A DNA stretch of 64,000 nucleotides, from the NCBI GenBank assembly GCA_900321005.1, contig ONUF01000003.1:57920-121919 (forward strand), in the 5' to 3' direction. Below are positions 6,304 through 35,060 of the stretch, piece by piece (the first letter of the stretch is position 1; every line of letters begins with the position of its first letter). Both the position numbers and the translations under genes were made by a program. Under the pieces are notes generated by a model. The model had not been told where the DNA came from and did no database searches. It saw only the letters and a list, made by a program, of their open reading frames with translations. The DNA comes from an uncultured Bacteroidales bacterium (GTDB lineage Bacteria; Bacteroidota; Bacteroidia; Bacteroidales; Paludibacteraceae).

Positions 6304-8880
6304 TTATTCTACTTTTGCGCCGGTGATCGAATAGGTCTCGCCGTTGCGCAGAATGAGAACCTGTCCGTTGCGAACAATCTTCTGCGCCTTCACCTCTGCA
6401 TTCACGTCCTCTATACCCTCCGAGTTCACAAACTTGCGGATATATACATACACATATACCGCGCCGGAAGTATTCGACTTATAGGGCTTAATCGCCTTGT
6501 TGCCGGCATGGTATTTGAACATCGCATTGGCGTTGCCTACGTTCTGCACGTAGATACCTTTGTTGCCATCTGCTACGAACTGCCATGTCAGGTTCTTGGT
6601 CGAAGTCGTATTCTCCAAATACAGATCGTTGTTGTTCTCCGCCAGCACTTTGTCCGAACCTACCGGTTGCAGCGTAAAACCGCTCTTGTTCTTTAGCGTA
6701 CCGATGACGAGACGCAACGCGTTATCGGCGTAGGCCTCCGTCTCTGTGACAGTGATATCCTCCAGCAGCACGGATAGTTTCTTGCCGTCTTGTGCACCGG
6801 CAATCACCGGAACGCTCTGGAGCGCCAGAATAATCGTATCTTTTGCTGCAATCTCCGAAGCGTCCGTCACTTTTGCGAATGTCTTGGCGGCCATCACATG
6901 AACCGTTATCTGAGCGCTCTTGTCGGAGATAGTAGCCGTGATAACAGCATCGCCGAGAGCTACGGAATGTACCTTCCCTGCTTCGTCCACCGTCGCTACT
7001 TCCGGATTGCTCGATTCGTAACTGATAGTGTACTCGCTGGCTGCCTGTGCCGGATCAACCGTCGGATTCAACTGCAGCGACATACCCAGCATCAGGTCAG
7101 CCTCAGCCGGCAGACTGATACTGTTTACTGCCACGGGCACCACATGTACGGCGCAACTCTTCACCACCTCGCCGATGGTAGCGGTGATCTCCGTGTCGCC
7201 CAGTCCCATAGCGGTGATAACGCCCTTGCTGCTCACTTTCGCGATTGACGCGTCCTTACTTGCCCATGTAGCCGTTGCACTCGCATAATCCGGTACAAAA
7301 GCGGTGATGCTCAGCGTCTCCGTACCTCCTACGTTCAGCGTCACGTCGCTCTTGGAGAGCGTAAAGTCCGTGATCGTCGGCTTCTCGATGGTCAGCGTCA
7401 CGCTGGCGCTTACGCTCGGCACGCGCACCGACGTAGCCGTTACGGTTATGGTACCCGTCACGTGCTTTGCCGTCAGTTTGCCGGTCTCGTCCACCGTTCC
7501 CTGGTAGGTGTGATCCACGGCCCATGTCAGCGATTTGTCCGCTGCGTCGTTCGGCGTATAGACCACGAACGGAGCCAGGTCTATCGTCTGACCTTGATCA
7601 ATCGTCGCAGGCGCACCTACGAAGGCGATGTTCGTCAGTTTGACGGTCGTCGGGATGAGGTTAATACTGATGGCTTTCGATCCCTCCATCGGATCTTTCT
7701 TTGCGTCCATCGTCAGGTATGCCAAGCGTGCATCTACGCTGCCTGTCTGGCTGCCGTTGCCTTTATAGCTCACGGTCACGGTTCCGCTCGTGCGGTCGCC
7801 GCTGTCCGCTACGTCAAACAGATTCGCATCGGTGCCTTCGATGTCCCAGATGATATCATCCTCCAGATGTTCCGCGGTATAATTGACCGTCACTTCTGCC
7901 GTCTCGCCGAGTTCTACGTCGCCGAAGATCACATCTTCCACCTCCAGTTTCGCCTCTACGTCATGCGCCGCGCCGGCTTTCTTATAGAGTTGAATCGTGC
8001 TCCCTTGCGGATTCTTGTAGGGTTTGAAACGGCCCGCATTGAACTCCACCGCAAAACTCTGCTCGTCGTCCGGCCGTGAAACGACCGCCGCGCCGTTACT
8101 GATACTTACGCCCCAGCTGGCCAATATGGCCCCCGCTTGCGTGTCTGCATAGGTGAATGCGCCCTTGCCGGTAATGTCCAGATGCAGACGCTGGTCGGTG
8201 TCGACATTGAAGAACTGCCAATTGCCGCTGTATTTCTTTGCGCGGAAGAACTGCGCCTCTTCCGGAATGTCTGCCGTACCCGCACTCGCGTCGATGGATA
8301 CGTTCTCCGTAACTTCCGGCAGATACGTCTCGAATAACGGACCGCCTACGGAAAGGGATGCCTCGCTTACGAAGACGATGGTGTCGCCGTCTTTGAGCTC
8401 GGAGGTGCTGTTGATACGTTTGAACGGCGTCGTCTGAGCGACATCCGCTTCGTCGGTAACGGTGATGGTGATATTTACATACTTATGAACCTCGTTCCAA
8501 CCGGTGTCGTAGGAGTATAGGTGCAACTTACCGGTGTATGTTCCCGCGGCTTTTACGCTATAGCCGATAGAGAACTCGCAACTGGTCACCATCTTGGCGC
8601 CGTAACCCAGAGACACATAATCCGGATCCCCTACATAGAACCCGTTCGGATTGGTCTCGTCGTCTAACACCCCATCGCTGATTTCCGCATACATGGTTGC
8701 TCCTTCGCTGGTCAGACCGCTCCATGTCACGGTTATCGTTTGAGATCCGTACATGGGCAACGCCTGTCCTTTGATACTTACTGTTCCGAAATCGACCACT
8801 GCCGGTTGGACATTGATACTTGCCGCCCAACTCATCACGCTGCTCATCGCCAGCGCCGCTAATAAGAAAATTTTCTTCAT
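6304..8880 (-). CDS. Secreted Ig-like (Big_2) domain protein with C-terminal tail
   Basis: This protein has 858 residues, starting at MKKIFLLAALAMSSVMSWA, a clear signal peptide. A longer frame to 9021 exists, but its extra residues are translated hairpin repeats (KREGLKNEREVHN-like) and I reject them as coding. The order is: an N-terminal beta-sandwich region; a module opening STSELKDGDTIVFVSE; Ig-like segments, including three Big_2-type repeats with the VDETGKLTA, KVSSKGVITA and VDEAGKVHS signatures (about residues 440-660); a second ASEIAAKDTIILAL module; and a C-terminal tail IVRNGQVLILRNGETYSIT. That tail recurs in two other secreted proteins of this window and may be an export or anchoring signal. 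It is probably a surface or secreted adhesin-like protein; the ligand is unknown. Confidence 0.8.
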   Translation of the reverse strand: MKKIFLLAALAMSSVMSWAASINVQPAVVDFGTVSIKGQALPMYGSQTITVTWSGLTSEGATMYAEISDGVLDDETNPNGFYVGDPDYVSLGYGAKMVTSCEFSIGYSVKAAGTYTGKLHLYSYDTGWNEVHKYVNITITVTDEADVAQTTPFKRINSTSELKDGDTIVFVSEASLSVGGPLFETYLPEVTENVSIDASAGTADIPEEAQFFRAKKYSGNWQFFNVDTDQRLHLDITGKGAFTYADTQAGAILASWGVSISNGAAVVSRPDDEQSFAVEFNAGRFKPYKNPQGSTIQLYKKAGAAHDVEAKLEVEDVIFGDVELGETAEVTVNYTAEHLEDDIIWDIEGTDANLFDVADSGDRTSGTVTVSYKGNGSQTGSVDARLAYLTMDAKKDPMEGSKAISINLIPTTVKLTNIAFVGAPATIDQGQTIDLAPFVVYTPNDAADKSLTWAVDHTYQGTVDETGKLTAKHVTGTITVTATSVRVPSVSASVTLTIEKPTITDFTLSKSDVTLNVGGTETLSITAFVPDYASATATWASKDASIAKVSSKGVITAMGLGDTEITATIGEVVKSCAVHVVPVAVNSISLPAEADLMLGMSLQLNPTVDPAQAASEYTISYESSNPEVATVDEAGKVHSVALGDAVITATISDKSAQITVHVMAAKTFAKVTDASEIAAKDTIILALQSVPVIAGAQDGKKLSVLLEDITVTETEAYADNALRLVIGTLKNKSGFTLQPVGSDKVLAENNNDLYLENTTSTKNLTWQFVADGNKGIYVQNVGNANAMFKYHAGNKAIKPYKSNTSGAVYVYVYIRKFVNSEGIEDVNAEVKAQKIVRNGQVLILRNGETYSITGAKVE

Positions 8881-8905: not shown

Positions 8906-9083
8906 TTGTGCACCTCGGTCTCATTCTTGAGCCCCTCTCTTTTGTGCACCTCGGGCGTATTTTTACGACCGCCCCTATTGTGCACCTCGCGCTCATTCTT
9001 GAGACCCTCTCTTTTGTGCACCTCGGGCGTATTTTTACGGCCGCCCTATTGTGCACCTCGCGCTCATTTTTGAGCGCGTTTCT
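8906..9083 (-). repeat. REP-like hairpin array, left block (5 units)
   Basis: Five units begin at TTGTGCAC (plus strand) at 8906, 8942, 8978, 9014 and 9049, giving a 35-36 base period. Each has GTGCAC followed by a 7-base stem, a TTTT or TTCT loop and the matching arm, for example GCGCTCA-TTTT-TGAGCGC. The last unit contains the stop codon of the transposase gene (9064-9066). The block fills the gap between the transposase and the Ig-like protein. Confidence 0.9.
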
Positions 9084-10263
9084 CTCCCCTCGCTATCTCC
9101 TCTGCTATCGCGTTTAGCGCCAAGAACCGGTATCGCTGCGAGGTATGCGGTATCTCCCCTGCTTTTGCTACTACCGCCGCCTCTATCTCTCCTCGCTCGA
9201 ATTGCTCTTCGCTCGGTTCTACCAACAGTAGCCGCCCTTTTGCGCAAGCCTCAAAGTACACCCCGCTCGGTTTGTAATAGTTGTATTGCGGGCTATCTGG
9301 TTTCGGGAAGCCCTCAGCTAGCAAGATGATGAGCAGATAGCCGGCCTCTCGCAGGGCTCTGCAGATGGTTTTCTCTCCCGGCGAAACCGCCGCGCTGATA
9401 TATACCGTCCCATTAGCCGCCTCAGCCAAGCAAGCCTCTCTCTTTGCCGCTATCTCCTCTTCCGTCATTGTACGCGAGCATTGTAGGACTTCTCTTTGCG
9501 GATTTTTCGCGAGAAATATGTTTCCGAGTGTCGTATAGGTGCCGTCTCCTATTTGCGTCTGCTGCTTTATCTTGAACAACTCCGGATTTGCCCGTTTCAT
9601 CGCCAGCCTCCGCGGATTGTCCTTGACGTAGTCAATCATAACTTGTAGGCTCGCCTCTTTGTGTAGTATCCGTTCATGATAGTGCGCCTCGTCTTTCTCC
9701 CAAATACTTCCCATGCGCGTAAAAATACGCTCAAATTGCACAAGATATAGTCTATTGTGCACCCCGGTCTCACTTTTGAGACCGTCTCTATTGTGCACCT
9801 TGGTCGCATTTTTGAGACCGTCTCTATTGTGCACCTCGCGCTCATTTTTGAGCGCGTTTTCTTCGACGCTCATCCGCCTATATTCTTTTGTACAGGCCGA
9901 TTTGAGACCTCGGATAACATGCCCGATACTTCGTGGCATTGGCTCCAATACTTGTATTACCACATGAATATGGTCGGGCATCATCTGCACTGCAATTATC
10001 TTTAGGGAATAGTCCTTTGGCGCGTAGTATTGCGGCAATCCTTGTATAGTACCCAACACATAGCGTCCAAAACTATTCAGACTAATCGAAGCTTCTTCCG
10101 GTTTCTCTCCGACCAACTCTCCCAATAGCGGAAAACGCTCGGCTATCACCAGTGTGAAATGGTATATTCCGCGACCACGATAGTCCCAATTCTTCAATCG
10201 ATGATGACGCGTATGGTCTATCTCATAACGCATTCCATCTGATGTCCTCTGCCCTTTTGCCAT
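9064..10263 (-). CDS. REP-associated tyrosine transposase (RAYT, IS200-like TnpA) with C-terminal extension
   Basis: This protein has 399 residues, starting MAKGQRTSDG; the ORF-maximal start at 10365 reads through hairpin repeats. RAYTs are HUH/Y1 single-strand endonucleases that move REP hairpins. Seen here are the HUH motif MPDHIHVVIQV (HIH near residues 98-100) and the helix DYVKDNPRRL with the likely catalytic Tyr near 211. The YRGRGIYHFTLV opening is like the family's first strand. Residues about 134-169 are three translated repeat units of exactly 12 codons (KNATKVHNRDGL-like). After about residue 255 comes a 140-residue extension (SPGEKTICRALREAGY, then YFEACAKGRLLLVEP) that is not part of the minimal RAYT; it has alpha/beta character and its function is unknown. 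The gene is flanked on both sides by repeat units on the same strand. Confidence 0.85.
   Translation of the reverse strand: MAKGQRTSDGMRYEIDHTRHHRLKNWDYRGRGIYHFTLVIAERFPLLGELVGEKPEEASISLNSFGRYVLGTIQGLPQYYAPKDYSLKIIAVQMMPDHIHVVIQVLEPMPRSIGHVIRGLKSACTKEYRRMSVEENALKNEREVHNRDGLKNATKVHNRDGLKSETGVHNRLYLVQFERIFTRMGSIWEKDEAHYHERILHKEASLQVMIDYVKDNPRRLAMKRANPELFKIKQQTQIGDGTYTTLGNIFLAKNPQREVLQCSRTMTEEEIAAKREACLAEAANGTVYISAAVSPGEKTICRALREAGYLLIILLAEGFPKPDSPQYNYYKPSGVYFEACAKGRLLLVEPSEEQFERGEIEAAVVAKAGEIPHTSQRYRFLALNAIAEEIARGEKRAQK
9755..9862 (-). repeat. REP-like hairpin units inside the transposase gene (3 units)
   Basis: Units start at 9755, 9791 and 9827, spaced exactly 36 bases, so the reading frame is kept. 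Stems are GGTCTCA/TGAGACC, an imperfect GGTCGCA/TGAGACC and GCGCTCA/TGAGCGC. Confidence 0.9.
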
Positions 10264-10286
10264 TTTCAGGATTAGTCTTATTCCTA

Positions 10287-10800
10287 TTGTGCACCTCGGT
10301 CTCATTCTTGAGACCCTCTCTTTTGTGCACCTCGGTCGTATTCTTGCGACCGCCCTATTGTGCACCTCGGTCGTATTTTTACGGCCGCCCTATTGTGCAT
10401 CCTTGCCGCATTCTTGCGACCGCCCTATTGTGCATCTTTGTCGCATTCTTGCGACCGCCCTATTGTGCATCTCGGGCGCATTTTTGCGACAACTTTCTCT
10501 CCTCCGCGCTACGTTTTATTGTGCACCTCGGTCGTATTTTTACGACCGCCCTATTGTGCATCTTTGTCGCATTCTTGCGACCGCCCTATTGTGCATCCTC
10601 GGTCGTATTTTTGCGACCGTCTCTATTGTGCACCTCGGGCGCATTTTTGCGACCGCCCTATTGTGCACCTCGGGCGCATTTTTGCGACCGCCCTATTGTG
10701 CATCCTCGGGCGCATTTTTGCGACCGTCTCTATTGTGCACCTCGGGCGCATTCTTGCGACCGCCCTATTGTGCATCCTTGTCGCATTCTTGCGGCAACCT
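10287..10800 (-). repeat. REP-like hairpin array, main block (14 units)
   Basis: Units start with TTGTGCA(C/T) at 10287, 10323, 10358, 10393, 10428, 10463, 10519, 10554, 10589, 10626, 10661, 10696, 10733 and 10768. Spacing is mostly 35, sometimes 36 or 37, with one 56-base gap around 10490-10515. Stems differ but stay largely paired: GGTCTCA/TGAGACC, GGTCGTA/TACGACC, TGTCGCA/TGCGACC. This fills the 535 bases between the transposase start and the next gene. Confidence 0.92.
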
Positions 10801-11167
10801 ACGCGCGCTTTCTTTTAAGGAACGCGCGGACGCATACATACGCGAGCGCAAGTAACGCCAACGGCCATCCCGCATCGCCAAGCGGCGTAGCCCACGGATC
10901 ACCGGTATCGCCCCACTCATCATCCTCCCAATCGCCTTTCTTCGCGCGAGAAGGTCCGCTCGCCGCATTAGCGGGTGTATATGTTCCCGGAATACTTCCC
11001 GTTACGTACGTTCCCTGCACTGCCGCGGAAGGTAATTGCGAACCCGAACCAGCCATGATAGAGGTGGATTGCATTTGTGCTTGCGGCTCTTGGGCGAGCG
11101 CCTGAGCACTGATGCTCAGTACGCTCATCAAACCCATTACGATCAATAAATATCTCAATGTCTTCAT
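10799..11167 (-). CDS. Small exported protein with C-terminal sorting-like tail
   Basis: This is a 122-residue protein of unknown family. Residues 1-25 are a signal peptide (LLIVMGLMSVLSISAQALA). A low-complexity Ser/Gly/Pro linker follows, then an acidic patch (KKGDWEDDEWGD). The end has three parts: TPLGDAGW, a hydrophobic segment of about 15 residues, and a basic end KRKRA. That layout resembles sorting tails that are cut after export, but the motif is not LPXTG or PEP. It sits 42 bases downstream of the giant InlB-repeat protein on the same strand and is probably co-transcribed, so it may act with it at the cell surface. The last codons run into the first hairpin unit. Confidence 0.6.
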   Translation of the reverse strand: MKTLRYLLIVMGLMSVLSISAQALAQEPQAQMQSTSIMAGSGSQLPSAAVQGTYVTGSIPGTYTPANAASGPSRAKKGDWEDDEWGDTGDPWATPLGDAGWPLALLALAYVCVRAFLKRKRA

Positions 11168-11209
11168 AACTTTAATCTCCTTTAAACATTACACATTCAA
11201 CATTAAACA

Positions 11210-14200
11210 TTATTTATTGATCTCCTTAACTTGTTTGCCCGTTGCGTCGTAGATCTTTCCGCCGCGGAGGATATACATCTTGTCGCGGTAGATAAACTTA
11301 TACGGTCGTTCCGGATCTCCGCTCACATCGCCTATGCCTGTTGCCGAGTTATCTTTCTCTTTGATCCGCAAGCCTATCGAGAAGCGGTTCTCAATCAATC
11401 CTGTCTCATCCAACTCTACCGTGTAATCATCGGTTAACAGGTTGGTATTCAGACCCAGTACGGCGTCATACAGGATTACATATTCCAGACGGTCGATATC
11501 GGAATTGTCATCCAGGCTGAAGATATACTCGCCAGCATTCGGAGCATAGAACTCTACAGGAATCAGTTCTTCCGTTTCAGCCGGTGTCATCGTGTTACCT
11601 ACCAGATAATGTCCGTCCGCTACGGTGTAAACCTTCAGGTAAGTCAATGCCTCACGGTTCTCGAAGATGTTCTGGTCCTCGCCGAACTTATAGCCGGCTG
11701 TTGCGTTCTCGTCCACGGTCAGTCCTGCTTGAGCAAATGCCTCTCCGTGCGTCAGGTTGATGTCCGCATAGATCGGTTGTGCTTTTGTTGCCTGCGCCAG
11801 CAGGTGACGCGGAGCGGATGCACGCTTCGACTTGTCGAATGTTACCGAACCGTTCGCACTCGCTTGGATGAAGAAGTTCTTGAATGGCTCAAATACCGCT
11901 TGAGCAGAGTTCGCACGATATTGCGGGAACTCGGTGTACCATTCATTAGGCATCGTCACGTATGCATTGGTCGTACTCTCCCATTCGTATTTGCCGTCCC
12001 ACGGATCGGTGTCTGTTTTCACGAGCGATCCGACAGTGAAGTCCGCAGCCCAACCTTCGTCTGCACCGTTATACGAAAGCGTTGCCATGTACGGGTTGGC
12101 GATTAAGTTCCATCCCTTGTCGTTGTCCGGGGTCTTGTCTCCGCCTTCATGAGCTGAGATGCTTACTGCAGACTTGACTACTTCGCCGCTACCGTCTGCC
12201 CAACCGCTTACGCTGCTGAATGGGAAGCGGATGACTGCGAACGGCTGGCCTTTCGGACGCTTGCCTTGCATCACATATCCCTCGCCGGCATGCAGTACGC
12301 GTTCCGTGGACGTGATATGTTTCCATCCCTTTCCGGTGGAAGCGCGTTGCTCGCCGTCATATTCCATGATCATGAACTGTGCATCCAGTGTACCATTGAT
12401 AGGTGCGCTCGTCTCGGTATTCAGCGAGTTCGCGAAGTTCACGGTGGACAGTGTTACATCGAATGGAACGCTCAGTGCGTACGAGTGAGCGGTATTCACA
12501 TACATATCGAGGTTTGCTCCCGCTGTACTGCTGAAGTTTTTGTCTAACTTCAGGTGAGGTACGCTTTGTGCCAAATCGCTCTTGTGGTCAATACCTTTGA
12601 TACCGCCGCGCAACTCTAAATAACGGACACTTAGATTATTGTTGGCCGCGTTCACAAGGGTTGCACCCGGATAGATATATAAGTTCTGGAACTTGCATGC
12701 TCCGCTGGCGATAGCATCTGTGGTCAGCGTCTTGCCGTCCAGTACCACTACGTCATAATCTTTTGTGGCGGCACTCAAGGTTGCAAACGGCTCGCTGTCT
12801 TTCGTACTCTTGTTCGCATTTACGATGATAGGAATGGTCGTTGTCGCGTAGGTAGGCGTGCCGCTGATGGTCAACTTCAGTGTCAGCAGTTTGCCGTACT
12901 GGCTGGTCAGGTCAGGCAGTACAACTTCGTACAGACCGTAACCGCCGGTGGAGTGACGGGTATAGGTAGTGCTTGTCTCACTGCCGGTACCAATCTTGTA
13001 ACTTACAGCCGTAATCTGGTTATCTGCCGGAACAGAGAATACCAGTCCGTTCGCTTTCCACTCACGCGGGATAATAGTGATCACCTCACGCTCGGTGAGC
13101 GGGAAGAAATGAATCTCGTTCGTCTCGTAAGTGCTGTTGCTTGCCCAAACCAACTTGCCGGCATGAGCGCCGCTTGACGGACGGTACAGATTCAGATAGT
13201 TAGTGCTATACATCGATTTCAACGTATAAGCCTCACGATCTTCGGTCTCTATAATCCACTCGTATGATGCCGGTGTCTCAGCAGTACTTCCGATAGCGGT
13301 GATAGTCGCCCAGTTACGGATGTGGTTATTGGAGTTGGATGCCCATAAACCGGCGTTACTATTGCCTGCAAAACGAACTTTGTCACCATTCGCCGCATAC
13401 TCGTCCGTGCCGCCGTTAACCGTTTGTACCGGCCACATCTTGTAACCTACCGTTGCAGGTCCGTAAGCAATCTTAGCGCTCTCGTCCACATCAATCAGCA
13501 CCGGTTCAAACACACCTTCTGCAGCCATATTTGCCGGTAGCGCATACCAATTGCCTGCTACCTTAGCTGCAATCACGAAGTTCTCCTTCACGGTGCGCAA
13601 CTCAGCCGTTACTTCGGCATCCTCGGCACCTGTGTAACTTGCCGTAATAGTTGCAGATGTCCAAGTGTCAGTATTACTGCTCGGTTTGTAGTGGACATAA
13701 ATAGATGTCGGAGTAACAATACCACTGGCATTGGCTACCACGGTAACACTCGGCTTCGGCTGGTTAGCTGCCGCCATTGCGAATGAAGAATTTGCCGAAG
13801 TAGAGAAATAGACATCGCTGTTGTTCGAAGTGATAGTAATCTCTCCTGTGCTCGGTGTCAAGGTGTGACCGGAAACAGTCAGTACATTGGTATTACGTAC
13901 TGCTCCGTTTTGAGAAGCCGTCACTACTACCGTTCCCTTCAAATCAATCTCAGGTATAGTCGATGGATTAGATGAGAATACACGGTTCGTACAACTACCC
14001 AAATAGACGCGGTGGTACAATTCGGGATTTGTCGTCACATTAGTACGGCGGTAGTTCATGAACGTTGCACTCGTGCCATTTCCATTAGCAATCAATTGAC
14101 CATAACTGGTTCCGACATGGTAGGCATCGAACTGGTTTCCGTTTATAGTAAGCGTCCATTCAGCGCCTGTAGCACTCGCCTGTTGTTTCAAGTCATCATC

Positions 14201-17200
14201 TTCAATACCGTATAGATACATATTGGTGGTATTATCGTATATTGTCCAGTTCCCGTTCTCCAGTTTGGTAAACGTAAAGGTAGTAGCTGCGGAACACAAC
14301 GTGGAACTATTGTAACGTTTGTGACTTTCGTATGATGCCGCATATACGCGTTGTGCAGCACCATATCCATCATCGCTGCCTTCATCCAAGAAGTAGATAT
14401 AGTAGTCACCACCATTAATCTCATCAAATGGCTCGTTATCCTCAAAGCGTGTGAATACTGGATACATATCTACATCGGCAGAAGAAATCGTTAATGCGTT
14501 TCCTCCGGTACTATATATACCGGAAGCTGCCGGAGCAGTTGTACTCTCTTCATAATCAGCCGTACGCCAACCTAAGAATGTCCAGCCGTCAAACGTCGCC
14601 GTCGGGAAAGTGCTTACCACGGTGGCATCCGCCAAGTCTTTGTATGTCGCTTCTGGATGACCTTCAGCCCAGTTGATGGTCGTTCCGTTGTCATGGAAGG
14701 TAATATCGAACTCATCCGCACAACTCATTGTACGATAATAATACTGACCTTCTGCTGCAACGAATGCAATATCGGTATAGCCACTGGTATTGTATGCCTT
14801 GAAGCCTGTTCCACTGCTATATTGCAGATAGTGACCAGACCCCACACCAAGTACATGCCATAGACTACTGTTCTTGGCCATTGTCCAATAATATGGAGTT
14901 GCAGCATCATTCAAAGCCAAACCGGTTGACGAGCCCGAATATTTCAGATATTTGCCATCGGCTTGCTGAATCGTGTATTTGCCGCCGTCGGCTGATGTGT
15001 ACTTGATATAGAATACGGCCGCTCCGGCTGCATCCGTCTCCGGTAACTTGCTGTTATTGCAAGCACCCGCATAAACGGTGCTACCGTTTGTAATCTTATA
15101 CGCTCCGCTCATTCCGGCTACAAATGCATCCGATGTGCTTGTCTTACGATAAATCGCATAGAGCGTCTTGTCAGCCGTCGGAGTATAAGTGCTTGTACCC
15201 GAAGCTATTTCTATGGTCGGAAGCATCGACATCGGAGCAATAGCTGTCTCGCTCCATCCTACGAATGCCCATTCGGCACTACACGGACTTGTTGCACTCG
15301 GAACAGCAATAGCAGCTCCTTCGGATGCCTGCGTTACAGGAGTTGTCACTCCTTGATTATTAAAGGTCACCGTATATACGCGCTCGTATCGTGCGTATAA
15401 TGTAATAGGTGTCTCGCCTACGCAGGTAATCACTTCGCCCGCATCGTACGTTGTTCCGCTTCCGTTAGCGTTCGTCGCCCAATGAGTAAACTTATAACCT
15501 TCAAGAGTCGGCTCGGTTGAACAAATGGTATATTCATTATCGTGATCCTCCCATCTGTAGTCAGTAACACCCGTGCAAGTCGTAGTCGAACCGGGGAAGG
15601 TTGTCGCGTTTGCATCGTATGTCAAATCAAACTCCTCAACGACACAAGGACAATCATCCAACGTGTAACCATACACTGCGGGAGGACCATAAGAAGCAGT
15701 GATACCTGATATTTGGTACTGATAACCGCTTGTATTCACGATGTAGCCTCCCGTTGTTCCACCACTACTTATTGTAATTGTTGTCGGACCGGACGAGGAT
15801 GCGGCAGTAGTAGCCGAAGCCACGTCACTTCCTGCCGCTGCTGTTCGATATGCTATAGAACGAGCAGAGGAATTTGAGTTGTGACTTATTGTTATAGAGT
15901 TATATTCTCCTCCTACAACAGGAAGTTGTATCCAAACGCCACTGGCATTCGTGACCTGAATTATAGTTTTATTTCCATTTGTTTGCTGTCCCGTTGTTGT
16001 CCAAACGCTTCCGTCAGTAGCGGTCACGCTATGTGAGGTCCCATAAGGAATATTTTCTGTACCACTCACATTTTCTGTATAAAGTCGTGAGATATCACTA
16101 CTCGTCAACTCGACCGTTCCACTTGCACCTGCACCGGTCTTGGAATAAACCGCATAATAGACCTTATCGCTTGTAATAGCACCTGAAGTTGCGCCACCTG
16201 CTATATAGCTTGGCGTAACATCCCATCTACCACTTCCGTTCGGAGCTGCCTCTGTCCAACCCAAGAAGGTCCAACACCATTTAGAATCCGACTTGCCGGT
16301 AATAGTTGGCATCGTGAACGATTGACCGTCAAGTACATGATTTCCTGCAGGACCACCGGTGATAGAACCTCCGTCTGTCGGAACATTAAACGTCAAGTTA
16401 CGCCAGTTAGCCGTCCATTGTGCATATAGGGTTACATCCGAAGATGGCATTGTGAACGTGCCACCGGCATTATAACGGGTGCCTGTACCACCTTCTTCAG
16501 TATCCCAACCTGCAAAGATATAACCACTTCTGGTCGGTTCGGTTGTACAAATGGTAAATGTCTGACCTGCAACACCAATCTCGGAACCTCCACAGACTAT
16601 CGTTCCTCCCTTTCTATTATACGTTACCGTAAAATTCTGTGCCCAATGAGCCCAAATAGTAGTGTTCCCGGTTACAGTATAGCTGTCTCCTGCGTCACCT
16701 CTCTTATCACCACCGCTGGATGCTGACCACCAACCTAAGAACGTGTAACCGTCACGGGCATCAGGTGTCGGAAGAGTCGTTGACGTACCATCGCAAGAAG
16801 TCGTGAACGAAGCCGGGGTTCCGGATCCACCATTATAGTTGAAATTAACCGTTCTGGCATCTCCAAACGGCCGGAATTCAATAGCAGAAGAAGTTACCGT
16901 ACACGTACTACTATACGAAACGACCTTATAGTGGTATGTGTTACATTTTGTTAATCCGCTGATACTTCCTGAATTGGTTGCACTGGTGCTGATATTGTCC
17001 TTTACTACCGCATTACCATTATCCACATCAATTACTTGGAACTTGGTAATACCGGCTGTAGAGGCAGGTAAAGTCCAGCCCAATGTCACGGAAGTATTGG
17101 TCATCGAGTTAACCACCACATCCGTTACCGGTTGCAGCGAGCAGCATTGTGTTGTATAATCCACAAATCCTGCATCCTGCTTGTAAATCTTTAAACGAAT

Positions 17201-20200
17201 ATTTCCGTTATTTGGCGAATTGTTTGTATAGAACTGCCAGGTATTGCTCCAATATTCCAGATACGAATTCGAGTTTTTCTTAATGTAGAAATAATTAGCA
17301 GACACAGCATCCACAATGCTCATTGCATTACCGTATGCTGTATATCCTAAATCAGCACATAAAATTTCAGCATAGTTATTGCCCTTATGCAATTTCCAAC
17401 TTGTAGAAGAAGCCTCTAATGTCCATTGGTTTGTACTTGCACTAACAGTAATCTTGCCTGCTGTCTCCGAAGGAGCAGCACCACCCTTATGGTCAGCACT
17501 GGTACCAAAGATTTGTCCACCGGATTGCTCTGCAACAATAGCAATGACATCTCCATCCGCTAACTGTGACAAACTGGTCACACGGCTGAAAGTCGTGCTC
17601 ATTCCACCCGTATTCGCAAATACCGCGTAGTAGTTTACATCACTGGCACCCATCGTTCCGCCGGGAGACATGCTTGTTATCATGCCTGCGGGCGCGTCTG
17701 TCGCGTGCGAATAAGAGGAATTAGTAGTCCAACCTACAAAGTGATCACGGTTACCGCAATACTCCTCTATTTCGGACGCTGTCTCTGTCGTCTGGTCCGG
17801 AATAGCCGCACCTTCGCGCACATCTGTCTCTTGAATCTTCGTCCCGCTTGCCCAGTATGTCACTTTGTGCGTTGGAATAGCTTCAAAGTTAATACGTACC
17901 GTACAATCCGTACTCGGCGTTACGGTAAACGTATTGTCTCCATTGTTAACCACAGTTGCTGTTCCGACTGTTACGGTATAACCGCCTGCACCACTGACTA
18001 CACGATAACCATCAACCGGCGAAGCCGTAATCGTCATATTTGTAGTAGTGCTCTGCGAAGCCGGAGATACAGTACCATGACTGACATTGCTGCTCGTCGC
18101 AGTTACCGTGAATGACTCCGGCGTTACGCTACCGTTTACAGCAACTTTTACTGCGTCAGCATTTGTGCTCGTCACACTCAATCCACTCGCCTGCTCAACA
18201 TTATAAGTACCCACTGCCAATCCTGCTACCAATCGAATATATAGAGTAGTAGAAGCTACAGTTCCGTCTGTCGGACTGAGATTAATAGCACTCGTGCTGA
18301 AACTGCTATTGTCCGTTGAAATCGCATAATTGCTCGGAGGTGTAATAGTAATATTTCCTTGCAAGTTTGTTCCGCTTACTGTAAATGACTGACTTGCACT
18401 CGGACCATGATTGTGTTCATACGTAAACTCACTGAAACTTGAGGTTAACGTAACAAACGGATCGGTCGATTTCTGTACGTAGAACGAGAACGTCTGGCCC
18501 GCTATATTGGTACCGATGGTATGACCAACTCCATACTCATATCTTCTCCAATCCGTGGATTGATAGACACCAATAAGTGCGTCACGATAAGTGTTGCGTA
18601 TATAACCATCAGCATCTCCATCATTGACTATAACGAAATCATTCTCTGCACTAGTTCCTACACGAACACCATTGTTCGACGATGTACAATACAACCATAC
18701 CGTATTATCTGACTGCTTTTTTATCTTAAAGCTTCCATCTCCAGCTTTGACAATATTCCACAACATATTGGAGGCTGTTGCACTTTCTACAGATAAAGCC
18801 GCGCCTGCTTCTCGAATATAATCCGTAACATTTATTGCTGACGGAGGATTTGTTGTCCCGTTGTTATTACTCATAGCATACTTCGTGCCATTGTCTCCAA
18901 CAATAATCACTTTATCTTTCGGACCAATCTCTCCAAACGATGTCAATACATATCTGTTCGGATCAACAATCACGTTGAAGGTAATATTGACTACCACATC
19001 ATCTGCATCCGTCGAACTCAACGTCAAGGTAGCCGTCTTGGTGGTTACTGCGTTATAGGCTCCTGTATAAGTGATAGTTATTGATCCGCTCGCCGAACCA
19101 CTTGTTTGTGTGATGCTTGCGGGTGAAATGGTGAAATCAGACGCATTGGTCCCACCTTTTACAGCCGTAATATTGGCTTTCAGGTTAGTACCCGTCACGC
19201 TAACACTTGTCGTGCTCGGAGCTACTCCAACAGAAGTACTCCAACTGACAGGACTCGGATCCGCCTCTATCAACGGCTTAAATACATGTCCGGTAACGGC
19301 CACGTTTTGTGTGGTAGCACCGGTGCTCTCAAATGTGACATTTGAACTACCATAGGTATTAACAGCTCTATCTGCTTTCAAACGCACTTTGACTGTCGTC
19401 ACATCCGGCTCTCCGCCTGTCTGGGTCACAGTTCTGCTGTCGCCATATGTACTACCTCCATCTGTACTCACCTCAAAATTCGTCGGAGCAGTAATAGTAA
19501 TACTTGCTGTCAGGTTACTACCACCCAAAGTAATATTCTGCGCCGCACTTGGTCCTTGACCAACAATATAATCCAGATTGGTTATGCTCGCAGGACTAAC
19601 AGTTATACTCGGATCACTCGGCGGCGTACACAACGTACGATAATTAGTGTAATTCACAGCCGACCATTGAGCAGTCATGGTCACGTTGGCAGCAGGCATA
19701 CTGAAGGTTTGCCCTGCTGTTTTAGCACCAACACCATTATCTCCTGACCAACCGGTGAAATTAAAGCCACTTTTTGCCAAACTCCCCGTATTGCCTAATA
19801 CAGTAACCGTTGCTCCAGAAGCATAACTATTTCCATCTACCGGCACAGAACCGCTGGTCGCACCACCGTCTGCATAAGTAACAGTAAAAGTGGATGACGC
19901 TTTTTTGAATATAAATATTGGAAGCTGAGCAGTGGCGTTTGCAGAAGTATAACACGCAAAAATATGGCTGCTATTATTATATCTCATTACATTACGGGTG
20001 TTACTTCCTTGCGCGACAAAGGAACCTTCTCCTGTAGTGGTATTTATAGTAACTGCCCATTCGCCATTACTATTATTCGACGCTTGTGTTTTCAAATAGT
20101 TACCACTGCTAGAAGCGGCATATAAATAACCAGGACAACCAGTTCCGGAACCATTATTAGAGTAAAATGTCCAATTATCACCAGACTTTCCTACCGTAAA

Positions 20201-20464
20201 TACATCTACGGTATTCCCGGGATCAGATATTTTATCATTGGAAATAGTTACAGCAATAGCAGTTCTGTTGTTGTTGTTCTGTTGTGTTCCAAGTGCATAT
20301 GAATTAGCAATGTTTACCAATAATACTTCATCTCCAATAGATAGATTACTGATGTTTTTCACTAACTCATAATCTACTCCCCACGCATTACTTACCGTCA
20401 AAACGGCTACAAGCGCCATTACTACGCGTTTCGCGAAATTCTTTATTGTATTTGTAGTTTTCAT
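11210..20464 (-). CDS. Giant secreted InlB B-repeat (Listeria-Bacteroides repeat) protein
   Basis: The protein has about 3084 residues from MKTTNTIKNF, whose signal peptide ends near VSNAWG; the upstream in-frame ATG at 20488 adds only eight residues. The sequence is a chain of beta-rich modules. There are at least eight InlB B-type repeats, such as VTYNRKGGTI...SGYIFAGW and TLYAQW, each ending in an AxW motif. There are also repeated ISNLSIGDEVLLV / SLSQLADGDVIAIV modules, fibronectin-like segments (VVNSMTNTSVTLGWTLP) and Ig-like beta-sandwich repeats. The last 25 residues (DKMYILRGGKIYDATGKQ) match the tails of two other secreted proteins here. It is probably exported to the surface; the target is unknown. 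It is followed by the small exported protein and preceded by a related 895-residue protein. Confidence 0.85.
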   Translation of the reverse strand: MKTTNTIKNFAKRVVMALVAVLTVSNAWGVDYELVKNISNLSIGDEVLLVNIANSYALGTQQNNNNRTAIAVTISNDKISDPGNTVDVFTVGKSGDNWTFYSNNGSGTGCPGYLYAASSSGNYLKTQASNNSNGEWAVTINTTTGEGSFVAQGSNTRNVMRYNNSSHIFACYTSANATAQLPIFIFKKASSTFTVTYADGGATSGSVPVDGNSYASGATVTVLGNTGSLAKSGFNFTGWSGDNGVGAKTAGQTFSMPAANVTMTAQWSAVNYTNYRTLCTPPSDPSITVSPASITNLDYIVGQGPSAAQNITLGGSNLTASITITAPTNFEVSTDGGSTYGDSRTVTQTGGEPDVTTVKVRLKADRAVNTYGSSNVTFESTGATTQNVAVTGHVFKPLIEADPSPVSWSTSVGVAPSTTSVSVTGTNLKANITAVKGGTNASDFTISPASITQTSGSASGSITITYTGAYNAVTTKTATLTLSSTDADDVVVNITFNVIVDPNRYVLTSFGEIGPKDKVIIVGDNGTKYAMSNNNGTTNPPSAINVTDYIREAGAALSVESATASNMLWNIVKAGDGSFKIKKQSDNTVWLYCTSSNNGVRVGTSAENDFVIVNDGDADGYIRNTYRDALIGVYQSTDWRRYEYGVGHTIGTNIAGQTFSFYVQKSTDPFVTLTSSFSEFTYEHNHGPSASQSFTVSGTNLQGNITITPPSNYAISTDNSSFSTSAINLSPTDGTVASTTLYIRLVAGLAVGTYNVEQASGLSVTSTNADAVKVAVNGSVTPESFTVTATSSNVSHGTVSPASQSTTTNMTITASPVDGYRVVSGAGGYTVTVGTATVVNNGDNTFTVTPSTDCTVRINFEAIPTHKVTYWASGTKIQETDVREGAAIPDQTTETASEIEEYCGNRDHFVGWTTNSSYSHATDAPAGMITSMSPGGTMGASDVNYYAVFANTGGMSTTFSRVTSLSQLADGDVIAIVAEQSGGQIFGTSADHKGGAAPSETAGKITVSASTNQWTLEASSTSWKLHKGNNYAEILCADLGYTAYGNAMSIVDAVSANYFYIKKNSNSYLEYWSNTWQFYTNNSPNNGNIRLKIYKQDAGFVDYTTQCCSLQPVTDVVVNSMTNTSVTLGWTLPASTAGITKFQVIDVDNGNAVVKDNISTSATNSGSISGLTKCNTYHYKVVSYSSTCTVTSSAIEFRPFGDARTVNFNYNGGSGTPASFTTSCDGTSTTLPTPDARDGYTFLGWWSASSGGDKRGDAGDSYTVTGNTTIWAHWAQNFTVTYNRKGGTIVCGGSEIGVAGQTFTICTTEPTRSGYIFAGWDTEEGGTGTRYNAGGTFTMPSSDVTLYAQWTANWRNLTFNVPTDGGSITGGPAGNHVLDGQSFTMPTITGKSDSKWCWTFLGWTEAAPNGSGRWDVTPSYIAGGATSGAITSDKVYYAVYSKTGAGASGTVELTSSDISRLYTENVSGTENIPYGTSHSVTATDGSVWTTTGQQTNGNKTIIQVTNASGVWIQLPVVGGEYNSITISHNSNSSARSIAYRTAAAGSDVASATTAASSSGPTTITISSGGTTGGYIVNTSGYQYQISGITASYGPPAVYGYTLDDCPCVVEEFDLTYDANATTFPGSTTTCTGVTDYRWEDHDNEYTICSTEPTLEGYKFTHWATNANGSGTTYDAGEVITCVGETPITLYARYERVYTVTFNNQGVTTPVTQASEGAAIAVPSATSPCSAEWAFVGWSETAIAPMSMLPTIEIASGTSTYTPTADKTLYAIYRKTSTSDAFVAGMSGAYKITNGSTVYAGACNNSKLPETDAAGAAVFYIKYTSADGGKYTIQQADGKYLKYSGSSTGLALNDAATPYYWTMAKNSSLWHVLGVGSGHYLQYSSGTGFKAYNTSGYTDIAFVAAEGQYYYRTMSCADEFDITFHDNGTTINWAEGHPEATYKDLADATVVSTFPTATFDGWTFLGWRTADYEESTTAPAASGIYSTGGNALTISSADVDMYPVFTRFEDNEPFDEINGGDYYIYFLDEGSDDGYGAAQRVYAASYESHKRYNSSTLCSAATTFTFTKLENGNWTIYDNTTNMYLYGIEDDDLKQQASATGAEWTLTINGNQFDAYHVGTSYGQLIANGNGTSATFMNYRRTNVTTNPELYHRVYLGSCTNRVFSSNPSTIPEIDLKGTVVVTASQNGAVRNTNVLTVSGHTLTPSTGEITITSNNSDVYFSTSANSSFAMAAANQPKPSVTVVANASGIVTPTSIYVHYKPSSNTDTWTSATITASYTGAEDAEVTAELRTVKENFVIAAKVAGNWYALPANMAAEGVFEPVLIDVDESAKIAYGPATVGYKMWPVQTVNGGTDEYAANGDKVRFAGNSNAGLWASNSNNHIRNWATITAIGSTAETPASYEWIIETEDREAYTLKSMYSTNYLNLYRPSSGAHAGKLVWASNSTYETNEIHFFPLTEREVITIIPREWKANGLVFSVPADNQITAVSYKIGTGSETSTTYTRHSTGGYGLYEVVLPDLTSQYGKLLTLKLTISGTPTYATTTIPIIVNANKSTKDSEPFATLSAATKDYDVVVLDGKTLTTDAIASGACKFQNLYIYPGATLVNAANNNLSVRYLELRGGIKGIDHKSDLAQSVPHLKLDKNFSSTAGANLDMYVNTAHSYALSVPFDVTLSTVNFANSLNTETSAPINGTLDAQFMIMEYDGEQRASTGKGWKHITSTERVLHAGEGYVMQGKRPKGQPFAVIRFPFSSVSGWADGSGEVVKSAVSISAHEGGDKTPDNDKGWNLIANPYMATLSYNGADEGWAADFTVGSLVKTDTDPWDGKYEWESTTNAYVTMPNEWYTEFPQYRANSAQAVFEPFKNFFIQASANGSVTFDKSKRASAPRHLLAQATKAQPIYADINLTHGEAFAQAGLTVDENATAGYKFGEDQNIFENREALTYLKVYTVADGHYLVGNTMTPAETEELIPVEFYAPNAGEYIFSLDDNSDIDRLEYVILYDAVLGLNTNLLTDDYTVELDETGLIENRFSIGLRIKEKDNSATGIGDVSGDPERPYKFIYRDKMYILRGGKIYDATGKQVKEINK

Positions 20465-20513
20465 AATAAATCTCCTTTCAATTTTCATGTTTCAATTTTC
20501 AATTCGATTATTA

Positions 20514-23201: not shown

Positions 23202-23736
23202 AATGTATTTGGTTTTTATATTTATATTCTTATCCTCATATTCATTCGGAACGATTATTTCTTATCCTCAATTCTTCGGAACGATTATTGTTCCAATACT
23301 CCTTATTTATCCACACACGCGTGTGCGTGTGGTTATATTTTGTGAGTACAGGGCAACCCAATAGCCTATACCCGTTTTTTTTATGTTGACATAATGAAAT
23401 AACTAAATATTGAAATAACAAACTTGGCAAAGTTGACAAAGTGGCAAACTTTACTTGGTCCTTTTTCCAGTCCAGCTTGTTCCTTTTTTTCTCAGCTTGT
23501 TCCTTTTTTCAACTACTTTTTTAGTTTATTTCAGTATGTCAAAGATCTTTCAACCATTGTTTTCAGTGCCTGGTGTAGCACTATCTTTGAGTGTGTTTCG
23601 AATTGTATTTCGTTATTTATGATTGTGTACGCACACACGCCTTTGCGCCCATGCGTGTGGAATGGTGTACACGCACAGAAAACGGCAACTCCGTTTAATA
23701 GTGGAATTACCGTTTGTAAGTATTATACGGTGTTGA
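23202..23736. other. Intergenic region with direct and inverted repeats
   Basis: No gene is seen in 535 bases. It holds a doubled TTCGGAACGATTATT segment (about 23240-23290) and a GT/CA-rich near-palindrome CCACACACGCGTGTGCGTGTGG-like (about 23320-23342). It also holds the left copy of a long direct repeat (about 23345-23573, then 23624-23720) whose partner is at about 33420-33730. Two AGCTTGTTCCTTTTTT motifs lie at 23473-23510. Confidence 0.7.
23680..23715 (-). terminator. Terminator hairpin after the first toxin gene
   Basis: Read on the minus strand, AAACGGTAATTCC pairs with GGAGTTGCCGTTT; all 13 positions pair if two G-U wobbles are counted, and a T-rich stretch follows. It lies 20 bases past the toxin stop. 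The same hairpin is kept at 33692-33726 after the second ParE toxin. Confidence 0.7.
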
Positions 23737-28956: not shown

Positions 28957-29435
28957 CTGTTATTTTGTTTTCTATTTTTTGTTACAATTAATATCCTTCC
29001 TTTCCCTCTTCCGTTTCACTTCCACTTCAATTTCATTTTCGGTCCATTTTCGGTCCATTTTCGGTCCAATCACGTATCCTGCACCACCTTATATATACTA
29101 TGTATATATCCCGTGATTTTCACTCTTTCATCCTTTCAATCCTTCATCCTGATATTCTTTTACTTGTTCCTTACTTGTATTGTACTTGCATTTTTTACTT
29201 AGTCCCTTCCACTCCAGCCTGTATCTTTTTTATCAATTCACCGCTATAGCCTGTATTAATTTTCTTATGGCCTGTATTAATTATGTTTGGTTCAACTCTC
29301 AGCCTGTATTATTTTTGCTTGTATTTCTTCCTAAAAAAGCTACAGGCTTGTTTCCTTTTAGCTTGGTCCCTTTTACCCTTATCCGTGTCGGGCACAACTT
29401 TAAATGTTTATCTTGTTATTAGATTTTACAATCTG
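28957..29435. other. Repeat-rich intergenic region
   Basis: No gene is seen. It contains three tandem copies of CGGTCCATTTT (about 29040-29067) and the left copy of a roughly 100-base direct repeat (about 29070-29172; partner 34500-34600). It also holds several AGCCTGTAT(C/T) motifs (29217, 29250, 29270, 29301) and a GTGTCGGGCAC leader repeat at 29371-29400. Confidence 0.65.
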
Positions 29436-34269: not shown

Positions 34270-34769
34270 GCAAGCATTTGGAGAAAAATCTTCTGATTTC
34301 TCTTCTTTTTACGGTAAATCCACTATGTCAAAGATCTTTTCGTTCCCGTTTTAAGTACCGAACGATAGTACTATATCTTCTTTCCCCTCATCTGTGTCGA
34401 GCACAACTATTATTTTGTTTTCGTTACAATTAATATACTTCCGTTTTGATTTCGTTTTCGGTCCATTTTAGGATCAATGTAGGACCATTGTAGGACCTAT
34501 CGCGTATCCTGCACCACCTTATATATACTATGTATATATCCCGTGATTTTCACTCTTTCATCCTTTCAATCCTTCATCCTGATATTCTTTTACTTGTTCC
34601 TCTTTTTTACTCAGCCTGTTCCTTTTTTCAACTCTTTCCCCACACTTTCACTCTCCCCGCATAGCCTGTTCCTTTTTTGACCCGCTCACTCTGCCCAACA
34701 TTCCCTCTCCCCGCACAGCCTGTTCCTTTTTTCATTTCATCTCCCCTCATTCTCTAACTCACTCATTCA
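34270..34769. other. Repeat-rich intergenic region
   Basis: No gene is seen. It carries the right copies of two repeats (34266-34335 and 34440-34600), a leader repeat (34381-34410), GGACC-containing tandem units (about 34465-34500) and five AGCCTGTTCCTTTTTT-type motifs between 34594 and 34800. Confidence 0.65.
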
Positions 34770-35060
34770 CTAACTCCCTTGTATAGCCTGTTCCTTTTTT
34801 GAAAGTTCCTCCAAATACTCTAAACCATCTGCCGTCAATCGGTACGTCTGTTCCGGTATACTTGGGTGCCAGGGGCATTGCATGGTTACCAATCCTCTCG
34901 CTCTGGCCGGCTTCATGTAGTTGTCATAGAAGTTTCTCCGCGATTCTTGTCTCAATCCCAAAGCCGCCATCAACTCACGTCTCGGATGTACTCCTTTCCC
35001 CATTACCATCACCAATCTCTGCACCCTCTCCTCTATTTTAACTTTCGTATTCATTCTCAA
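34770..35060 (-). CDS. Orphan winged-helix protein or fragment (Fic C-terminal-like)
   Basis: This is a 96-residue frame. RRELMAALGLRQESRRNFYD, then YMKPARARGLVTMQ and QTYRLTADGLEYL resemble the winged-helix domain found at the C-terminus of Fic-family and AlbA-type proteins. Nothing of the catalytic part is present, so it may be a remnant or a small stand-alone regulator. Its last residues KKEQAIQGS are encoded by a copy of the AGCCTGTTCCTTTTTT intergenic motif. Confidence 0.45.
   Translation of the reverse strand: MRMNTKVKIEERVQRLVMVMGKGVHPRRELMAALGLRQESRRNFYDNYMKPARARGLVTMQCPWHPSIPEQTYRLTADGLEYLEELSKKEQAIQGS

Follow-up and report, generated by a model that had tools for sequence, protein, structure and literature searches.

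A Bacteroidales family of RAYT-like genes with hairpins inside the coding sequence and a predicted DprA-like tail

The window analysed here is a 64,000-nucleotide stretch of DNA (contig ONUF01000003.1, positions 57,920 to 121,919, assembly GCA_900321005.1) from an uncultured Bacteroidales bacterium of the Paludibacteraceae. It contains a gene for a protein of the REP-associated tyrosine transposase (RAYT; REP, repetitive extragenic palindrome) type that is flanked by, and itself carries, short hairpin-forming repeats (Table 1). The sequence 5′-TTGTGCAYC is present 22 times between positions 8906 and 10768 (unit starts) in units of 35–37 bases, five downstream of the gene, three within it and 14 upstream. 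This pattern count bears out a preliminary description of the locus, made from the sequence alone, which reported 22 such units around and inside a RAYT gene. That description also spoke of a continuous tandem block; the units are real, and within blocks they start 35–37 bases apart with a single exception of 56, but there are three blocks, and the upper one is broken at about 10494–10518. Likewise, the three direct units that it counted inside the gene are present, but a fourth, inverted unit was missed. The last unit of the downstream array (9049–9079) overlaps the stop codon of the gene. The likely start is the ATG at 10263, while the same open frame with a GTG start reaches 10365; it is because the ATG is taken as the start that the 14 upstream units are placed outside the gene and three direct units inside it.

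Table 1. Features of the RAYT-like locus, in coordinates of the window. pLDDT, predicted local distance difference test.
Feature	Position	Strand	Remarks
Array of five units, downstream of gene	8906..9079	+	Unit starts 8906–9049
RAYT-like HUH/Tyr protein with DprA-like tail, 399 residues	9064..10263	-	Y1_Tnp match; AlphaFold2 model
DprA-like C-terminal domain (predicted fold)	9079..9567	-	Residues 233–395, about 160 residues; AlphaFold2 pLDDT 92.2 when modelled alone; Foldseek
Catalytic-Tyr helix YVKDNPRR	9607..9630	-	Residues 212–219; Y212, N216, P217 and R219 invariant (alignment of 78)
HUH–Tyr linker, predicted disordered	9679..9843	-	Residues 141–195; 10-residue blocks at pLDDT 40–60; mostly encoded by hairpin units
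Decayed inverted in-gene unit	9714..9743	-	GTGCA and a hairpin with one stem mismatch; occupies the place of the clade's second hairpin
In-gene hairpin unit 1	9755..9785	+	T-rich loop on + strand
In-gene hairpin unit 2	9791..9821	+	Unit pattern
In-gene hairpin unit 3	9827..9857	+	Unit pattern
HUH motif MPDHIH	9964..9981	-	Residues 95–100; M95, P96, H98 and H100 invariant (alignment of 78)
Array of 14 units, upstream of gene	10287..10798	+	Unit starts 10287–10768; RNA fold z-score -7.63 (10264–10800, minus strand)

All seven columns of TTGTGCA are invariant across the 22 units, and a 29-base unit pattern with up to three mismatches matches the window 18 times and shuffled sequence not at all (0 in 100 shuffles). 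The stems covary. Among the 22 units (19 distinct), 88.2% of cells are paired and 13 cells show double changes, against 4.7 in shuffles; the covariation score is 0.308 against 0.145 in shuffles, none of 500 being as high, and it drops to 0.142 or less once the partners are slid. At gathering scores Rfam finds a tRNA alone in the window, and a known RNA element was therefore set aside.

The protein has the HUH motif and the catalytic tyrosine with Y---NP that mark RAYT/TnpAREP proteins (class 2 TnpAY1), and it is associated with REP-like hairpins, although a matching hairpin does not flank every member of the family. It scores 24.3 bits against Pfam Y1_Tnp, just over the cut-off of 23, and 38.9 bits against NCBIfam REP_Tyr_transpos, well under the curated cut-off of 80. 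Residues H98, H100, Y212, N216 and P217 are invariant in alignments of 78 and of 52 sequences, and D97 and D215 are nearly so in the alignment of 78; both sites of the HUH/Tyr protein that had been recognised beside hairpins in this Bacteroidota genome are thus intact. The mean pLDDT of the whole protein is 82.8. The preliminary description was right about the HUH/Tyr part and did not mention the C-terminal domain. An IS200/IS605 insertion sequence, for which a short protein with Y---Q and many near-identical copies would be typical, was rejected on the length of 399 residues, the Y---NP motif and the single Y1_Tnp match in the incomplete genome of origin.

Relatives of this protein are widespread in the genus. 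With the window protein as query, matches were found in 32 of 61 genomes and, among the genus genomes, in 128 of 178; a family profile matches 131 of the 178, with up to 10 matches per genome. The best 80 of 192 relatives from named genomes are in Bacteroidales metagenome-assembled genomes, labelled Paludibacteraceae, Bacteroidaceae, Prevotella/Prevotellaceae, Salinivirgaceae or Bacteroidales alone, and many of these 80 have ruminant gut samples in their titles. Viral contigs, phages and plasmids yielded no confirmed relative of the protein, and a phage or plasmid origin was set aside for that reason. The proteins are long, 312–448 residues in 51 relatives, with a median of 183 and a minimum of 100 residues after the Tyr in a set of 118 genes chosen for a length of at least 300 residues. 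This set, which includes the window, was obtained from 131 complete frames by removing identical cores and keeping near copies; relatives with a broken frame or one shorter than 300 residues (e.g. L055, L057, L058, L063 and L093) are outside it under those locus names.

It is apparent from the 118 genes that hairpins are concentrated in one part of the coding sequence. Perfect hairpins (stem of at least 7, loop of 3–8) are present in the HUH–Tyr linker of 96 genes, 137 hairpins in all or 8.09 per kb, compared with 0.64 per kb in the part before the HUH motif (20 genes) and 0.47 per kb in the part after the Tyr (23 genes). Codon shuffling leaves 4.1 genes with a linker hairpin, and synonymous recoding of the same proteins a mean of 6.9 and a maximum of 13; for stems of at least 8, the 60 genes observed compare with a mean of 1.7 and a maximum of 5 under recoding. 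The protein sequence therefore does not by itself produce the fold. The spacing of HUH and Tyr ranges from 65 to 186 residues in the family. It is 117 in the window protein and 92 and 94 in its nearest kin, L115 and L117, and two additional 36-base units appear to sit in frame inside the window linker. Hairpin arrays within genes have periods that are multiples of three in 8 of 8 rows, as do 10 of 24 arrays in flanks. Two units in opposite orientation, the arrangement of a REPIN, are found inside genes, including the window gene with its decayed inverted unit, and RTGCA-bearing loop-4 hairpins are present in both orientations within 8 of the 27 genes that have such hairpins. For comparison, 30 loci of the same order matching the REP_Tyr_transpos profile were fetched, of which 25 were parsed and the other five left out. 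Just three of the 25 have a linker hairpin, under linker limits slightly wider than those used for the 118 genes; most have hairpins beside the gene, and their frames are 165–232 residues long in 22 and longer in three.

In the clade to which the window gene belongs there is a second, inverted hairpin directly before a conserved Trp, which lies 24 residues from the Tyr in all 37 anchored genes. Sequences of this hairpin were cut by the Trp codon rather than by folding, and 36 of the 37 were aligned (34 distinct), L118 being left out because its hairpin is shifted. Pairing holds in 93.0% of cells, double changes occur in 26 cells (5.9 in shuffles, a maximum of 8 with slid partners), and the covariation score is 0.299 against 0.116. 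One covarying pair joins the third position of a codon for Arg (Cys in two genes) to the first position of a codon further on, mostly for Ala or Thr; it is CG in 28 sequences, UA in five and UG in one, and is broken in none.

The hairpins also differ by lineage. Loop length (3, 4, 5 or 6 bases) follows the protein tree with 11 changes against 37.5 when shuffled, none of 200 shuffles being as low, on a quick tree built without a mixture model and with long-branch warnings, in which 95 of the 118 rows were labelled. The sequences that recur next to the stem, read by eye, vary by class: GTGCAY, CGTYNATT on both sides, or GGTYCTGCT. RTGCA lies within 10 bases of 37 of the 76 loop-4 linker hairpins, and GT[AG]G is at the foot of none of 142 linker hairpins (counted with slightly wider linker limits than the 137). 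Loop-3 hairpins of one stem family are in different reading frames in different genes, which is evidence against selection on the peptide alone.

Outside the genes, hairpins are most frequent within 250 bases of the gene on either side, at 2.6 and 2.27 per kb compared with 0.18–0.84 farther away. A matching hairpin, with the same loop length and at least five of six inner stem bases identical, lies within 600 bases of 30 of the 96 genes, where permutation gives a mean of 4.2 and a maximum of 12 (500 permutations). Tandem arrays bearing hairpins are found in or near 25 of 128 rows, at least three loci (L063 = L122, L058 = L115, L057 = L127) being represented by two rows each. Loci L106, L153, L154, L161 and L172 have tandem hairpin arrays of their own with quite different sequences, and that of L172 crosses the gene boundary. 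Searching the genome that contains the window (2.12 Mb in 54 contigs, 78% complete) with a covariance model of the unit gives 25 copies, those beyond the 22 of the window being singles on contigs C14, C35 and C27; the copies on C14 and C35 are outside open frames of at least 100 residues. The array looks local to this genome. Of the nearest kin, L117, whose flanks are complete, has a single TTGTGCAY-type site in 7.1 kb, and L115, where just 480 bases upstream are covered, has none. Both nevertheless carry in-gene hairpins, which suggests that the array expanded locally and late and that the hairpins in the gene are the older feature. The suggestion that the array is a birthplace of the element is accordingly not supported in that form.

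Dispersed copies are seen best in two other genomes, G110 and G193, where near-identical copies occupy several separate sites away from the gene. In nine G110 loci, picked because the unit model matched them, 11 copies lie clear of open frames of 100 residues, 10 with the stem CGGTGGCA and one with CGGCTGCA; CGTGCAC precedes nine of the 10 copies with CGGTGGCA, and a RAYT of G110 has CGGTGGCG within the gene, adjoining CGTGCA on the same strand. The copies at the loci of both genomes are single or in the same orientation, in a scan that detects just perfect hairpins behind a strict guide. Across the genus, and excluding the genome of origin, the unit model R2 matches 63 of 130 genomes with the family (mean 1.29) and 6 of 47 without it (mean 0.23), these counts having been made with stricter filters and at most 40 candidates scored per genome. 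The pattern CCGAATNNNATTCGG occurs 705 times in the 178 genomes against 2 for a reversed control, with mean copy numbers of 4.73 and 1.89 in the genomes with (130) and without (47) the family, and there are CCGAAT copies in 23 of the 47 genomes without a detected relative. The unit is thus not equally common where the transposase is absent, although it does occur there, and the gap in copy number is partly built in because the counts can include in-gene copies.

The C-terminal domain of the window protein is predicted to fold like DprA. When the tail alone is compared with the PDB by Foldseek, the best 14 of 501 matches all belong to the DprA family, being chains of four proteins (ShosA and those of H. 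pylori, S. pneumoniae and R. palustris), with probabilities of 0.95–1.00, E-values of 1.5e-3 to 5.9e-2 and template modelling (TM) scores by query of 0.43–0.51. With the whole model ShosA (8zva) comes first (E 2.9e-4), followed by IS200/IS605 transposases, and the other DprA chains have E-values of 1e-2 or higher. A separate protein with PF02481 is encoded elsewhere in the same genome. A known defence protein was rejected, as PADLOC matched just two families, one in 2 and the other in 1 of the 76 tails, with E-values of 0.019 and 0.0092 at best.

Among described systems, groups 4 and 5 in the RAYT grouping of Bertels reportedly correspond to subclasses 2.4 and 2.6 of TnpAY1. In-frame REPs inside RAYT genes are already published: the accessible text of Quentin et al. 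(2018, PMC6006769) describes REPs in frame between HuH and Y in subclass 2.4, from Cyanobacteria and Bacteroidetes. The present family resembles that subclass in the position of its hairpin and in being from Bacteroidetes. Subclass 2.4, as characterised in the same text, has NH[IFV]H, YIxNNP, a median of 194 residues, no tail domain and REPs with GT[AG]G at the foot, whereas here we find MPDH, Y..DNPRR (Y..MNPQR in the loop-3 clade), 312–448 residues, a DprA-like tail and no GT[AG]G. That text also assigns a large C-terminal domain to other subclasses, which are without REPs, and describes GT[AG]G as absent from subclasses 2.6 and 3 as well. Subclass 2.6 is similar in its origin from Bacteroidetes, its Y1 protein and its atypical flanking hairpins without GT[AG]G (PMC6006769, accessible part), but its median is 179 residues and its motif YIH[QN]NP, and the comparison loci with that Tyr motif have mostly flanking and rarely in-gene hairpins. 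The HUH/Tyr core is shared with the E. coli TnpAREP REPtron (4ER8, with 4er8 at rank 34 of the whole-model Foldseek matches). That enzyme cuts a single-stranded hairpin beside a guide in which GTAG is crucial, according to the portion of PMC8266576 available to us; in its place the present family has the clade-specific flanking sequences GTGCAY, CGTYNATT and GGTYCTGCT as putative guides read by eye. The tail resembles the DprA family, including ShosA, in its predicted fold, and differs from DprA in having no SGxAxGID motif in an alignment comparison. In-frame palindromic repeats within coding sequences also recall the Rickettsia palindromic elements, which, in the accessible text of PMC3733652, are in various genes, and here the repeat lies in the gene that encodes the presumed mobiliser. 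A literature search, thin on subscription papers, found no published description of the family and no instance of DprA together with 'REP-associated tyrosine transposase' or 'HUH endonuclease'. What is new here is the combination of a DprA-like tail with REP-like hairpins, the absence of the GT[AG]G guide and the covariation in the in-gene hairpin. The centre of the finding is the hairpin kept inside the gene, not the array, and its unexpected part is the DprA-like tail.

We consider it probable, on balance, that the locus is REPtron-like and belongs to a distinct RAYT family of Bacteroidales. The data show the anatomy of the locus, the constant position of the hairpin within the gene, its covariation, its excess over synonymously recoded sequence and the grouping of loop classes on the protein tree. 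From anatomy and comparison we infer the rest, namely binding, cutting, amplification, the direction in which copies spread, what the tail does and why a copy is kept in the gene. The HUH/Tyr domain would most likely recognise its cognate hairpin as single-stranded DNA, cut nearby, and spread or amplify the hairpin, which here would consist of GTGCAY, a few bases, a stem of 7–8 bp and a four-base T-rich loop. The gene carries this presumed cognate hairpin in the HUH–Tyr loop, which is predicted to be disordered, often as an inverted pair in the clade of the window gene, and selection on DNA or RNA would keep the hairpin folded while leaving the encoded peptide free to vary. The in-gene copy would be stable and inherited, and the flanking arrays and dispersed singles would derive from it with a faster turnover, the unit having been amplified in tandem in this genome. 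The tail, going by its modelled fold, would probably serve to bind or protect the single-stranded product, or to recruit RecA. A stronger proposal, which we put forward tentatively and think unlikely, is that of a self-marked single-strand transposase. Every protein lineage would be obliged to retain a recognition hairpin of its own in the gene, so that enzyme gene and substrate would be passed on and evolve jointly; flanking and dispersed REPs would be seeded from the gene, and the DprA-like domain would hand the single-stranded product to the recombination machinery of the host. If this were true, the spread of REPs in these Bacteroidales would be a coupled cut-and-recombine process.

Several observations weigh against the REPtron-like reading. 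The linker lacks a perfect hairpin (stem of at least 7) in 22 of the 118 genes, and the three genes in which HUH and Tyr lie closest are among these. A matching hairpin is missing from the vicinity of 53 of the 80 hairpin-bearing genes whose flanks are complete, and a flanking cognate hairpin is thus not the rule. The unit is rare beyond the array in its own genome (3 copies), one TGA is recorded in the matched stretch of the G110 RAYT, and G081, a genome with no detected relative, has 20 copies of CCGAATNNNATTCGG; either the family is not needed for hairpins to persist or spread, or its gene escaped detection there. As to the covariation of the second hairpin, four pairs show a double change, which is no more than shuffling gives (77 of 500 shuffles reach that number), so that the signal sits in the number of cells, and kinship among the sequences inflates cell counts. 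The DprA assignment is drawn from predicted folds, with an E-value of 1.5e-3 at best for the tail alone. The tail has no Pfam match, PF02481 (DNA_processg_A) included; its profile finds no DprA among solved sequences; and hhalign of the tail with DprA is not significant (probabilities of 0.7% and 1.9%, E-values of 0.085 and 0.026). Homology to DprA at the sequence level was rejected on these profile comparisons, and for the same reason just a resemblance of fold is claimed.

The in-frame hairpins might instead be functionless, random REP hops surviving where the protein tolerates extra residues and so filling the HUH–Tyr loop. This explanation, which is close to the view of subclass 2.4 in the accessible part of Quentin et al. 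(PMC6006769), is in our estimate unlikely. It agrees with the predicted disorder and variable spacing of the linker, with the frame-keeping periods of in-gene arrays, and with REPs reported in flexible loops of other genes (PMC6006769 and PMC3733652, as far as their accessible text goes); the three genes with the shortest spacing (65–67 residues) are without a hairpin, as expected if hairpins arrive by insertion. At a spacing of 69, however, all seven genes have a hairpin (three are near copies), and a linker hairpin is present in just three of the 25 loci that match the RAYT profile in this order, although HUH and Tyr are similarly spaced there. Chance tolerance also does not lead one to expect that the second hairpin is fixed before the Trp (shifted in L118), or that paired changes tie a synonymous site to one that alters the amino acid.

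The arrays and the in-gene hairpin could also act in mRNA, by attenuation, by stability or by the protein binding its own message, rather than as substrates for DNA mobility. The 14-unit block is immediately upstream of the gene, its RNA folds far better than 100 shuffles, and hairpins crowd within 250 bases of the gene on either side, yet the near-identical copies at separate distant sites in G110 and G193 are explained most easily by mobility and many relatives have no matching flank copy, and this explanation seems improbable to us. Template switching at imperfect palindromes could perfect hairpins without selection, with slippage building the arrays, and the recurrence of hairpin-bearing tandem arrays in 25 of the 128 rows, repeated loci included, is what such a process would give. 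Alone it leaves unexplained the restriction to the linker, the clustering of loop lengths by clade and the conserved sequence at the side of the stem, and we regard it as very improbable. The family, with its presumed substrate hairpin retained in the gene for the enzyme, bears on the questions, still open, of how REPs originate, are matched to a transposase and spread. The many divergent pairs of enzyme and hairpin within one genus are natural matched sets for tests of recognition and co-evolution, and the DprA-like tail, if real, is a concrete link between RAYTs and the handling of single-stranded DNA.

The neighbours of the array are a Big_2 protein at 6304–8880 and, on the other side at 10799–20488 (minus strand), a short open frame and, beyond it, a very large one of 3,092 residues that by eye looks repetitive. 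Elsewhere in the window, positions 29030–29170 and 34460–34600, about 5.4 kb apart, hold near-duplicates of a stretch of some 130 bases, and the segment that they enclose has few long open frames. Another family of short repeats is represented by GCCTGTTCCTTTTT, which has nine matches in the window (up to one mismatch; 0.03 expected), all on the + strand, at 23475–23508, 33558, 34614–34799, 35061 and 35488.

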